From a virus: a stretch of 52,826 nt of DNA. The translations under genes were made by a program, and so were the position numbers. Positions 43,054 through 46,308 of this stretch are shown one piece after another (the stretch's first letter is position 1; each line of letters opens with the position of its first letter). The stretch spans positions 1 to 52,826 of IMG/VR virus record IMGVR_UViG_3300025098_000068; one strand, given 5' to 3'. The notes beneath the pieces were generated by a model that saw nothing but the letters and a program-made list of their open reading frames with translations, was not told where the DNA came from and ran no database searches.

Positions 43054-43263
43054 ATGGTCACAGTTGAGCAGTTTCTGAAATGGAAAATACTCCCAAGATG
43101 TATGATGCTTGCAAGCACAGTCATGTCTTGGAGATGTGCTGAGTGGTTCATGGACTTAGATGCACCCACAGCAGCTCAATCAGCATTTGTATCCGTCGTT
43201 ATGGGCGTGATGACAGGGGTATTTGGTATTTGGATGGGTCACGAACACAAGGAGCATAAGTAA
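43054..43263 (+). CDS. Two-span small membrane protein, holin candidate, 69 aa
   Basis: Two hydrophobic segments (about 12-32 and 42-62) are separated by a short acidic loop (DLDAPT) and followed by a His/Lys/Glu tail. Size and topology match class II holins or their regulators, which permit lysozyme access to the wall. The stop of this gene shares a base with the start of the three-span holin-like gene (TAATG). A 97-base A/T-rich gap precedes it. Confidence 0.65.
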   Translation: MVTVEQFLKWKILPRCMMLASTVMSWRCAEWFMDLDAPTAAQSAFVSVVMGVMTGVFGIWMGHEHKEHK

Positions 43264-43655
43264 TGTTAACAGCGTTAATAGGTCCTATTGCTAATCTTGC
43301 AGGTTCGTGGATGGAAAGCAAGGTAGAGAAAGTCAAGGCTGATGGTCAAGCTAAAGTAGCACAAGCCAAAGCTAAAGCAGTCGTCGCAGAAAAAGTAGCA
43401 GCAGGAGAAGTTGCTTGGGAGAAGTCTATGGCAGATGCCACAGATGGATCATGGAAAGACGAGTTTGCACTTATTGTCCTTCTACTACCTGCTATATTAG
43501 TCTTCATTCCTAGCATGACAGAATATGTACGAGCAGGGTTTGAAGTTTTGAATACGTTACCAGATTGGTATCAGTATCTTTTATTTATAGCCGTTAGTTC
43601 TTCTTTTGGAATTAAGGGTGTTGGTCAAGCGATGAAACTGATGGGGAAAAAGTGA
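43263..43655 (+). CDS. Holin-like protein (GTA_holin_3TM type), 130 aa
   Basis: An N-terminal hydrophobic stretch (1-16), an Ala/Lys/Glu-rich helix (20-50), the phrase DGSWKDEF, and then two hydrophobic segments (about 68-88 and 103-123). This pattern fits the three-span holin family found in gene transfer agents and marine phages. It follows another small membrane protein and stands upstream of the lysozyme, so it probably takes part in timed membrane opening. Confidence 0.75.
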   Translation: MLTALIGPIANLAGSWMESKVEKVKADGQAKVAQAKAKAVVAEKVAAGEVAWEKSMADATDGSWKDEFALIVLLLPAILVFIPSMTEYVRAGFEVLNTLPDWYQYLLFIAVSSSFGIKGVGQAMKLMGKK

Positions 43656-43900
43656 TGTCAAACATAATCGAAACAAACTTTGGTACATTAATTAATCCTG
43701 CGAGAGTAGCAAATGGAAGTGCTTCTAGTATTGTAAAGAAGGGAGCTTTCTACATATTCTCACTCAAGATAAGCAATGATGATATAAGAGAGTATTCTTT
43801 TACTGACAGACAGAGAGCAGAAAAGATGAGAAAGATTCTTATAAGTCACTTAGAACACATGATCAGTGGTAGAGCGAGGAAAGCAAATGGCACTAACTAA
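43655..43900 (+). CDS. Hypothetical protein, 81 aa
   Basis: The start at 43655 shares a base with the upstream TGA (TGATG) and has GGGGA upstream; a GTG three bases earlier is also possible. A small beta/alpha protein (KKGAFYIFSLKISND) with a basic helical end. No known family. It overlaps the next small basic gene by 14 bases. Confidence 0.68.
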   Translation: MSNIIETNFGTLINPARVANGSASSIVKKGAFYIFSLKISNDDIREYSFTDRQRAEKMRKILISHLEHMISGRARKANGTN

Positions 43901-44036
43901 ACGACAACAGACAACCATGAAAAAACATTCAAAACACCATACTAAAAAACATATGGATAGTATGACTAAGGCTATGAAGAAGGGTAAAACATTTACTAAG
44001 GCACATAAACTAGCAATGAAAAAAGTAGGAAAGTAG
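43887..44036 (+). CDS. Lys/His-rich micro-protein, 49 aa
   Basis: A short gene with a very basic product (MALTKRQQTTMKKHSKHHTK...), six His and six Met residues and a Lys-rich end. An upstream GCGAGGAAAG acts as ribosome site. It overlaps the preceding gene and is followed after one base by the next ATG. It may bind nucleic acid or metal; function unknown. Confidence 0.6.
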   Translation: MALTKRQQTTMKKHSKHHTKKHMDSMTKAMKKGKTFTKAHKLAMKKVGK

Positions 44037-44037
44037 C

Positions 44038-44202
44038 ATGGCAGCAAAGAAAAAGAAAAGTGGAAGTCCTAAACCAAAGAACCCAAAGCTCTATGCTTCA
44101 GTAAAAGCTGCGGCCAAGAAGAAATTTAAGGTGTACCCTTCGGCATATGCAAATGCTTGGTTAGTACGTGAGTACAAGAAACGTGGTGGTACTTACGCAT
44201 GA
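44038..44202 (+). CDS. Basic protein, 54 aa, DUF5872-like
   Basis: Residues 17-54 (NPKLYASVKAAAKKKFKVYP, then SAYANAWLVREYKKRGGTY) match a compact helical motif that is very common in marine viruses (DUF5872 in my recollection). The first 15 residues are lysine-rich. It is coupled to the next gene by ATGA. Function unknown; DNA binding is plausible. Confidence 0.68.
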   Translation: MAAKKKKSGSPKPKNPKLYASVKAAAKKKFKVYPSAYANAWLVREYKKRGGTYA

Positions 44203-44429
44203 GTTTAACCAAGTGGTTTAAAGAAGATTGGCGGGATGTCAAGACAGGCAAAAAGTGCGGCCGTTCTGGTAAAGAAAAAAAGAAAAGACCTTATCCTGCC
44301 TGCAGACCTAAAGCCGTAGCAAGTAAGATAAGTAAGAAAGAAGCAAGTAAAAAGACAGGACCTGCAAAAGTAAAGTGGTCTGTTACTGCATCAGGTCGAA
44401 AACGTAAGACAACAAGGAAGAAAGCATGA
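44199..44429 (+). CDS. Basic Cys-containing protein, 76 aa
   Basis: Starts MSLTKWFKEDWRDVKTGKKC, followed by GRSGKEKKKRPYPACRP and a Lys/Arg/Ser-rich tail. The WFKEDW...CGRS...YPACRP pattern recurs in many marine viruses. Function unknown. Coupled on both sides by ATGA junctions within the run of basic proteins. Confidence 0.7.
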   Translation: MSLTKWFKEDWRDVKTGKKCGRSGKEKKKRPYPACRPKAVASKISKKEASKKTGPAKVKWSVTASGRKRKTTRKKA

Positions 44430-44969: not shown

Positions 44970-45455
44970 ATGAAATATGAACGCAGTGAACTAGTTAAGA
45001 TGATAGCTTTACATGAAGGACTCCGATTACAAGTCTATCAGGATCATCTAGGCATAGATACGATTGGAATCGGTCGTAACTTGGAAGACAGGGGTATCAC
45101 AGATGGTGAACTATCTTTTATAAACAAAACTATGGAAGATGTTTACGAAGTTGGTCTTACTGAAGAAGAAGCCTACTATCTTTGCATGAATGACATAGCA
45201 ATTGTAGAAAAAGAGCTACTAGAACGAAAGCCACTTGTAAATCAACTTAGCGATGTACGACAAATGGTGCTTGTTGATATGGCATTTAATATGGGTGTTC
45301 CTCGTCTTATGAAATTTAAAAACATGTGGATGGCGATAGAAAAAGTGAACTATCCTTTAGCTTGTGAAGAGATGATTGATTCAAGATGGGCTAATCAAGT
45401 AGGCAACAGAGCTATGAAATTATCTTTGGCTATGAAAAATGGGGAGTGGATATGA
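44970..45455 (+). CDS. T4-type lysozyme (GH24 endolysin)
   Basis: Cleaves the glycan backbone of peptidoglycan for lysis. The 161-residue enzyme has the T4 lysozyme catalytic triad at the right spacing: E16 (LHEGLRLQVY), D25 (QDHLG) and T31 (IDTIGIGRNL), equal to T4 E11, D20, T26. Later phrases (LVDMAFNMG, RWANQVGNRA) agree. No signal peptide, so release depends on the holin candidates upstream. The stop overlaps the Cys-rich peptide gene (ATGA). Confidence 0.95.
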   Translation: MKYERSELVKMIALHEGLRLQVYQDHLGIDTIGIGRNLEDRGITDGELSFINKTMEDVYEVGLTEEEAYYLCMNDIAIVEKELLERKPLVNQLSDVRQMVLVDMAFNMGVPRLMKFKNMWMAIEKVNYPLACEEMIDSRWANQVGNRAMKLSLAMKNGEWI

Positions 45456-45571
45456 CCGAAGAAAAGAAGAAATGTGCAACGTGTGAATGTTACGAGTGTG
45501 ACTGCGAAGAGTGCAATTGCGAATGCCACAAAGAAGATAATGATGAGGAGGTACAAGGAGTACCAGTGTGA
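45452..45571 (+). CDS. Metallothionein-like Cys-rich peptide, 39 aa
   Basis: Eight cysteines lie in 18 residues (8-25): CATCECYECDCEECNCEC followed by His26, a C-x2-C-x-C-x2-C-x-C-x2-C-x-C-x-C pattern like metallothioneins. The rest is acidic (start MTEEKKK, end with Asp/Glu). It is coupled to lysozyme by ATGA and to the next gene by GTGA, with GGGGAG upstream, so it is very likely translated. It probably binds Zn, Cu or Cd. No similar phage family is known to me. Confidence 0.7.
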   Translation: MTEEKKKCATCECYECDCEECNCECHKEDNDEEVQGVPV

Positions 45572-45750
45572 TTGAGTTCGTACTAGTGGTTATGATGGGA
45601 TTAAAGATAATAGACCAAACACAAACCTTCGATAACATAGATAGATGTCTGTACTTTGCAGTAAGATTAAATGATCAAGCATCTATACCACAAAGGGAAG
45701 GACCTAACTTACAAATAACAGCGTATTGTAAACCGACAAGGAAAAAGTAA
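45568..45750 (+). CDS. Small Cys-containing protein with hydrophobic N-terminus, 60 aa, GTG start
   Basis: The GTG start overlaps the previous stop (GTGA) and has AAGGAG seven bases upstream. Residues 1-14 (MIEFVLVVMMGLKI) are hydrophobic like a signal anchor; the rest is polar with Cys27 and Cys54 that could form a disulfide outside the cytoplasm. Similar in layout to the 69-residue protein at 30645. The neighbouring lysozyme suggests a lysis-related role, by context. Confidence 0.65.
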   Translation: MIEFVLVVMMGLKIIDQTQTFDNIDRCLYFAVRLNDQASIPQREGPNLQITAYCKPTRKK

Positions 45751-45751
45751 G

Positions 45752-46195
45752 ATGTTAGCAGAATTAGCCGCAGCAAATGCCGCCTTTTCGGTTATCAAGC
45801 AATTTGTGTCCAATGGAAAAGAACTGAGTGGATGTGCGAAACATATAAGCGATTTTGTATTTTCAAAGGAAGCAATAGAAAAGAACCTTAAAAAGAAAAA
45901 AGCTAAAGGTGTAGGTGGCACAGACCTAGAAGAGTTCATGGCTCTTGAGCAGATAAAAGAAAAAGAAGAAGAACTCAAGAAAATGATGATCTACTTAGGT
46001 CGCCCCGGATTGTGGCAAGATTGGCAAGCCTTTCAAGCCGAAGCTCGTAAATCCAGACGCTATCAAGAAAAAATGGAAGAGAAGCGTAGAGAAGAGTTGA
46101 TGGAATACGTAGGCTACGGAATAGCCTTTATAGTTGTATTATTCTTTGCAGGATTGATGGCATGGTTTGCAGGCAAGTGGATGGGAAGATTTTGA
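45752..46195 (+). CDS. C-terminally anchored membrane protein, 147 aa
   Basis: Starts MLAELAAANAAFSVIKQFVS, has a charged coiled coil (about 45-120, KEEELKKMMIYLGRPGLWQD) and one hydrophobic segment near the end (GIAFIVVLFFAGLMAWFAG). This type is common behind tail or lysis genes in marine phages, function unproven. An i-spanin-like or tail-associated role is possible. The stop overlaps the next TTG start. Confidence 0.7.
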   Translation: MLAELAAANAAFSVIKQFVSNGKELSGCAKHISDFVFSKEAIEKNLKKKKAKGVGGTDLEEFMALEQIKEKEEELKKMMIYLGRPGLWQDWQAFQAEARKSRRYQEKMEEKRREELMEYVGYGIAFIVVLFFAGLMAWFAGKWMGRF

Positions 46196-46308
46196 GTCCG
46201 TGTGTGGGTGTCTGTACGTTGAAAGACAATGTGTGCATAGGCTGTAAGCGAACTATAGAAGAGATTAAAAAGGCGTACGAAGATACAAAGAGATTGACAT
46301 CTAGCTAA
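46192..46308 (+). CDS. DUF1289-like mini-protein, 38 aa, TTG start
   Basis: The peptide SPCVGVCTLKDNVCIGCKRT followed by IEEIKKAYED is the core of the DUF1289 family (Fe-S or zinc-binding small bacterial proteins, usually 60-70 aa). Cysteines are at 4, 8, 15 and 18. The TTG start shares bases with the previous stop (TTGA) and has GGGAAG upstream. Very short but clearly conserved in pattern. Function unknown. The final codons hold the -35 box of the promoter at 46294. Confidence 0.7.
   Translation: MSPCVGVCTLKDNVCIGCKRTIEEIKKAYEDTKRLTSS

Follow-up and report, generated by a model that had tools for sequence, protein, structure and literature searches.

A candidate metallothionein-like cysteine peptide encoded beside the lysozyme gene of an HMO-2011-type marine phage

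The window analysed here is the whole stretch of an uncultured virus record (IMG/VR), 52,826 bases long, and it carries genes for a family A DNA polymerase (PF00476), a ribonucleotide reductase, a terminase and head proteins. Its lysozyme and terminase are similar to those of HMO-2011, CRP and HTVC phages, and the polymerase gives a weak match to the DnaJ_CXXCXGXG profile, below the cut-off. From the polymerase, a length that fits genomes of about 52-56 kb and the related terminase, the window phage is placed in the HMO-2011 type, a group dominant in the sea in which the polymerases have a partial DnaJ zinc domain (PMC9038755).

Beside the lysozyme gene, in the stretch that separates the major head protein gene from the later structural genes, a small plus-strand frame (45452-45568, starting with ATG at 45452 and stopping with TGA at 45569-45571) encodes the 39-residue peptide MTEEKKKCATCECYECDCEECNCECHKEDNDEEVQGVPV. 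Eight cysteines, at residues 8, 11, 13, 16, 18, 21, 23 and 25, lie within 18 residues in the pattern C-x2-C-x-C-x2-C-x-C-x2-C-x-C-x-C, and His26 follows directly. The net charge is -9 (K/R/D/E count), and sequence inspection revealed neither a signal sequence nor a membrane or hydrophobic segment. The lysozyme stop and the peptide ATG share ATGA, the peptide stop and the GTG of the next gene share GTGA, and these overlaps imply a translational coupling of the peptide gene to its neighbours. The GGGGAG of the peptide gene lies five bases upstream of the ATG in a context that is the same in relatives, and the next gene has the sites GGAGG (45547-45551) and AAGGAG (45555-45560) upstream of its GTG start. 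The frame, its cysteines and histidine, its acidity, the lack of a membrane segment, both overlaps and the ribosome site had all been named in the original prediction and were borne out. Translation could also begin at a GTG at 45446, but this start is less good, since relatives in other contexts begin at the equivalent of Met1. Further upstream, a membrane-segment protein of unknown function (phrog_2524), holin-like in look, is encoded at 43263-43655 and has counterparts close to the peptide in 109 of the 156 relatives, and three very small, highly basic proteins stand in a row at 43866-44429, upstream of the lysozyme, with related ones at many loci.

Table 1. Genes and signals around the cysteine peptide (positions in the window).
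Feature	Position	Strand	Basis
Phage lysozyme (PF00959), ATGA overlap with the peptide gene	44970..45455	+	profile match
GGGGAG, Shine-Dalgarno site for the peptide gene, within the lysozyme gene	45441..45446	+	sequence, relatives
Metallothionein-like Cys peptide gene, 39 aa	45452..45571	+	sequence, conservation
Presumed metal-binding unit, residues 8-26: invariant core C-x-T-C-x-C-Y-x-C-x4-C-x-C-x-C-H	45473..45529	+	131 peptides, pN/pS
Ribosome site GGAGG...AAGGAG for the gene that follows; sets the peptide tail EVQGVPV	45547..45560	+	sequence, tail types
Constant downstream partner: 60-aa MIEFV protein with two invariant Cys, beta-beta-alpha-beta fold predicted	45568..45750	+	relatives, model
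Coiled-coil protein, C-terminal membrane segment (phrog_32327), constant cassette member	45752..46195	+	profile, relatives
DUF1289 four-cysteine protein (PF06945)	46162..46308	+	profile; in cassette of 74/156 loci

The shortness of the frame, its overlap with both neighbours and a tail shaped by the ribosome site of the next gene would suit a chance frame, or a leader that merely couples lysozyme translation to the next gene. When the window was shuffled 200 times by a dinucleotide Markov chain, open segments with eight cysteines in 18 residues arose at 0.005 per shuffle and the spacing of the peptide did not occur in any of the shuffles; the cysteine content of long open reading frames is 0.6%. 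Among 120 distinct 57-nt cores, the entropy was 1.20 bits at the third codon position, against 0.23 and 0.22 bits at the first and second. In the lysozyme-anchored set of relatives, pN/pS was 0.12 for the peptide core and 0.14 for the lysozyme, and the ten fixed Cys, Thr, Tyr and His codons had a pN of 0 with a pS of 0.86. These data show that the peptide gene is under strong purifying selection. A chance open reading frame, which the original prediction had also discounted, is refuted by the codon-position entropy, the pN/pS values and the shuffles; as to a leader, the peptide is kept behind genes other than lysozyme and, where it is deleted, the lysozyme is coupled directly to the MIEFV gene by ATGA, so that this whole line of explanation is scarcely credible. 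An antisense frame (45395-45556, minus strand) with the look of a membrane segment is the mirror of the Cys and Glu codons, and the codon variation of the plus strand excludes it as the selected frame.

The gene of the cysteine peptide is real, and well over a hundred related phages of the ocean carry it. In scans of IMG/VR, the motif was found within about 300 nt at 61 of the 70 readable loci anchored on lysozyme, and a MIEFV-anchored scan of over 500 relatives, from which 80 loci were kept, placed the peptide within 600 nt upstream at 75 of them; the cysteines, which the original prediction had proposed to look for in related marine phages, are kept in nearly all relatives. The remaining five comprise one locus ended by a contig edge, one with a deletion (L500) and three of a single clade lacking the peptide (L496, L503, L511). 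A third scan, which asked for nothing but the seven Cys and the His, yielded at least 120 stretches, and all matches listed, low-complexity frames excepted, have Thr and Tyr at core positions 3 and 7, residues that the query did not impose. Another clade (L043, L044, L045, L053, L058, L059) lacks the peptide cleanly, its lysozyme joining MIEFV directly by ATGA, and no copy was found elsewhere on these contigs, which are fragments. At L500, about 60 nt upstream of position 381, an in-frame deletion removes the first half of the cysteines and leaves three (MNEKSDECNCDCHDE...); it is either a true allele or an assembly artefact. The core regular expression chose the frame, and the loci without the motif were additionally read by direct inspection, each of them revealing no copy with a point-mutated core cysteine. 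Absence of the frame or loss of cysteines in relatives had been named beforehand as evidence against the prediction: the outcome is mixed, the gene being missing from two clades and damaged at L500, but no core cysteine was found to be lost by point mutation. The clean absence in two clades indicates that the peptide is accessory and not essential.

None of the 131 distinct peptides differs at seven of the cysteines, at Thr10, at Tyr14 or at His26, and their consensus is C-x-T-C-[EKT]-C-Y-[DE]-C-D-x-[ED]-[ED]-C-x-C-x-C-H. Cys18 is missing from 31 of them; a MIEFV tree, rough and built on few columns, places about 15 changes at this residue, at least 7 of them forced by supported branches, and a small group without Cys18 has extra cysteines at other places (CC...HCEC; L041, L051). 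We read this as a fixed core of eight presumed metal ligands (seven Cys and His) with Cys18 as an optional ninth, and an optional cysteine on an unchanging core is as expected of a cluster protein. Beyond the core, four tail types were distinguished (GVPV, KGND, LELDF and HHNDR). The GVPV tail encodes both ribosome sites of the next gene, the KGND tail overlaps the ATGATTG start of that gene, and in the HHNDR clade MIEF starts 4 nt past the His26 codon, the tail being its other frame. The tail types show that the part after His26 is dispensable and largely explained by the next gene; the functional protein therefore probably has about 27 residues, ending at His26.

The gene adjacent upstream, among 156 distinct loci, is lysozyme at 55, a 98-aa basic protein at 36, an 80-aa basic protein at 28 and others at the rest, and the gene downstream is MIEFV at 130 and the coiled-coil membrane protein at 12. 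The coupling to lysozyme put forward in the original prediction holds in the window but only at some loci of the relatives: the peptide is not tied to lysozyme as such, and MIEFV is the steadier partner. The MIEFV protein is strongly conserved in over 500 viral loci and its model reaches a pLDDT of 93; a fold search returned unnamed viral look-alikes only (best E 0.0035), with no significant match in the PDB. The DUF1289 protein in relatives can carry a basic C-terminal extension. Roughly ten of the 156 loci have a protein with a NifU-like Fe-S domain (PF01106, 89 bits), whose gene lies downstream of the peptide by about 1.5 kb at L129 (also L111, L130, L137 and L144); no such gene was found in the window's own phage.

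These neighbours raise the question of a thiol or Fe-S helper, acting as a redox buffer or as a carrier of metal or sulfur together with the DUF1289 and NifU-like proteins. The presence of DUF1289 in nearly half of the loci, the strength of the NifU match in a neighbouring gene and the ribonucleotide reductase of the window phage would be in agreement with such a role, as would the finding that ydhL, the E. coli DUF1289 gene, was a hit when overexpressed genes were screened for resistance to H2O2 and HOCl (PMC8228696). In contrast, the window's own phage lacks NifU, DUF1289 was not seen at half of the loci (some of which end early), and the CxC-dense pattern corresponds to no known Fe-S scaffold, which makes this role improbable. 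A small, Cys-rich product adjoining lysozyme could also be a secreted disulfide-rich or modified (RiPP-like) peptide freed at lysis. This is very improbable, since the peptide has no signal sequence, no modification enzyme was recognised among the cassette genes, CxC pairs make poor partners for disulfides, and metal better fits the conserved His and the acidic spacers.

The main rival, because Thr10 and Tyr14 never vary, is a structural zinc mini-protein with two fixed Zn sites that would bind one partner (MIEFV, the coiled-coil protein, a lysis or virion protein or a host protein) and would not handle metal. Every spacing is as invariant as these two residues, eight fixed ligands would make two tetrahedral sites, MIEFV is the usual next gene and AF2 predicts a helix after the core, the core itself having a confidence of 72-76. 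Nevertheless, Cys18 has been repeatedly gained and lost and some members have three more cysteines, which is unexpected for a fixed finger, and MIEFV is retained where the peptide is missing, so that we hold this alternative to be unlikely, though a serious contender.

Homology searches did not place the peptide in a described family. No match was obtained in Pfam, PHROGs, NCBIfam or PDB sequences, nor did 73 members match any Pfam profile at E<=1, the bacterial metallothionein PF02069 included; PF02069 gave nothing at E<=10 in nine phage records with the peptide, while the Synechococcus elongatus control was recovered, bearing in mind that HMMER bias filters weaken profile tests of Cys-rich sequences. 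A fold search of the PDB with the low-confidence peptide model found no match. The exact pattern gave no cellular homologue in 84,980 prokaryote species genomes, the 103 stretches returned being simple-repeat or poly-Cys frames on inspection, which removes the case for a host origin; a long Cys-rich Anaerolineae frame (L251) is unlike the peptide. When 296 genomes from a single bacterial order (centred on an Amylibacter MAG) were searched with a profile, no homologue was accepted, the sole match (E 0.04, 16 bits, with the positive control at 58.6 bits) not being taken as one. In cultured phages, tblastn found nothing, the low-complexity filter probably masking the query, and the blastn matches were chance. 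A pattern search of 17 whole phage records returned only matches with one or two mismatches, none a homologue; three of those that were checked are not peptide genes, and the negative result for cultured phages covers these 17 records. Phage Mosig (L382, 2507-2644) encodes a small Cys-rich protein of unrelated pattern (MEYCKNCGHECHCGSACK...CCKQCRC), annotated as hypothetical. No paper on a phage metallothionein was found in the open-access literature, subscription journals lying outside the scope of the search. The family is new, widespread and apparently phage-specific.

With 39 residues, eight Cys in 18 residues, CxC and CxxC pairs and conservation in 131 relatives, the peptide has the broad traits of a metallothionein. 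Under the classical definition aromatic residues are rare or absent, whereas Tyr14 is invariant here; some bacterial metallothioneins contain aromatics. Like SmtA/BmtA and PmtA (PF02069), the peptide is small, presumably cytoplasmic and Cys-rich, with CxC and CxxC pairs and His among the presumed ligands, but its functional unit of about 27 residues is shorter, its cysteines are much denser and otherwise spaced, and it differs by the invariant C-x-T-C-x-C-Y, the high acidity, the location in a phage lysis cassette and the lack of a profile match. MymT, the mycobacterial copper metallothionein, and the small fungal Cu-thioneins are likewise very short and Cys-dense with CxC pairs; the phage peptide differs in its Cys pattern and its conserved His and Tyr, and shows no Pfam-level sequence match. 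The DUF1289 and NifU-like proteins are also small Cys proteins of the cassette with likely metal or Fe-S roles, but their sequences are unrelated and they are neighbours only. The reading of the original prediction is thereby partly supported: metallothionein-like remains the best short description, with the correction that Cys18 is optional and that Thr10 and Tyr14 are as fixed as the cysteines. Such fixed residues are not typical of metallothioneins and would be unusual for a pure metal sponge; together with the lack of a profile match, they suggest a peptide that may work like a metallothionein and fits no known family.

The best reading of a Cys/His array in an acidic, signal-less, cytoplasmic peptide is a metal-thiolate site, and we propose, as a probable though far from certain reading of the sequence, a phage-specific, metallothionein-like metal-thiolate peptide that handles metal, probably Zn or Cu. 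The DUF1289 and, at some loci, NifU-like neighbours, with their conserved Cys or Fe-S character, would count for metal handling. Against a metallothionein stand the lack of a family profile match, the invariant Tyr and Thr, the clean absences, the moderate AlphaFold confidence and the lack of a fold match. In the reducing cytoplasm, the CxxC/CxC/CxCxCH array would fold either around Zn(II), two or three ions of it, or around a Cu(I) cluster; the eight fixed potential ligands would suit two tetrahedral Zn sites, and Cys18 as a ninth would make a three-metal cluster possible. The position among late genes makes late expression likely, the peptide then being produced along with the lysozyme and structural proteins, and makes it seem less likely that the peptide loads the polymerase's DnaJ-type zinc domain. 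The peptide may hold, buffer or hand over a thiophilic metal while host metal pools are disturbed, or alternatively shield thiol proteins, and the fixed Thr and Tyr could give one defined fold or docking surface, perhaps for metal transfer to a cassette partner. Since bacterial metallothioneins work as zinc buffers whose affinity for Zn lies in the picomolar to femtomolar range (PMC10612145), such a phage peptide could compete for host zinc; taken together with the metal-thiolate reading, this favors buffering or transfer late in infection. The fuller proposal, held tentatively and at just short of even confidence, is that of an unnamed, widespread metallothionein family of HMO-2011-type lytic marine phages, of phage origin and not borrowed from a host, which would control zinc or copper in the dying cell.

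As a practical matter, low-complexity filters can hide genes such as this one. Discussions of trace-metal handling are usually confined to hosts and, for phages, to the iron of their tails. If the peptide binds metal, abundant ocean phages would join directly in that handling, the peptide would offer, as a tractable model of 27 residues, a natural metallothionein-like fold of very small size marked by its fixed Thr and Tyr, and lysis and the release of zinc or copper would be linked in a testable way to the cycling of metals in the sea.
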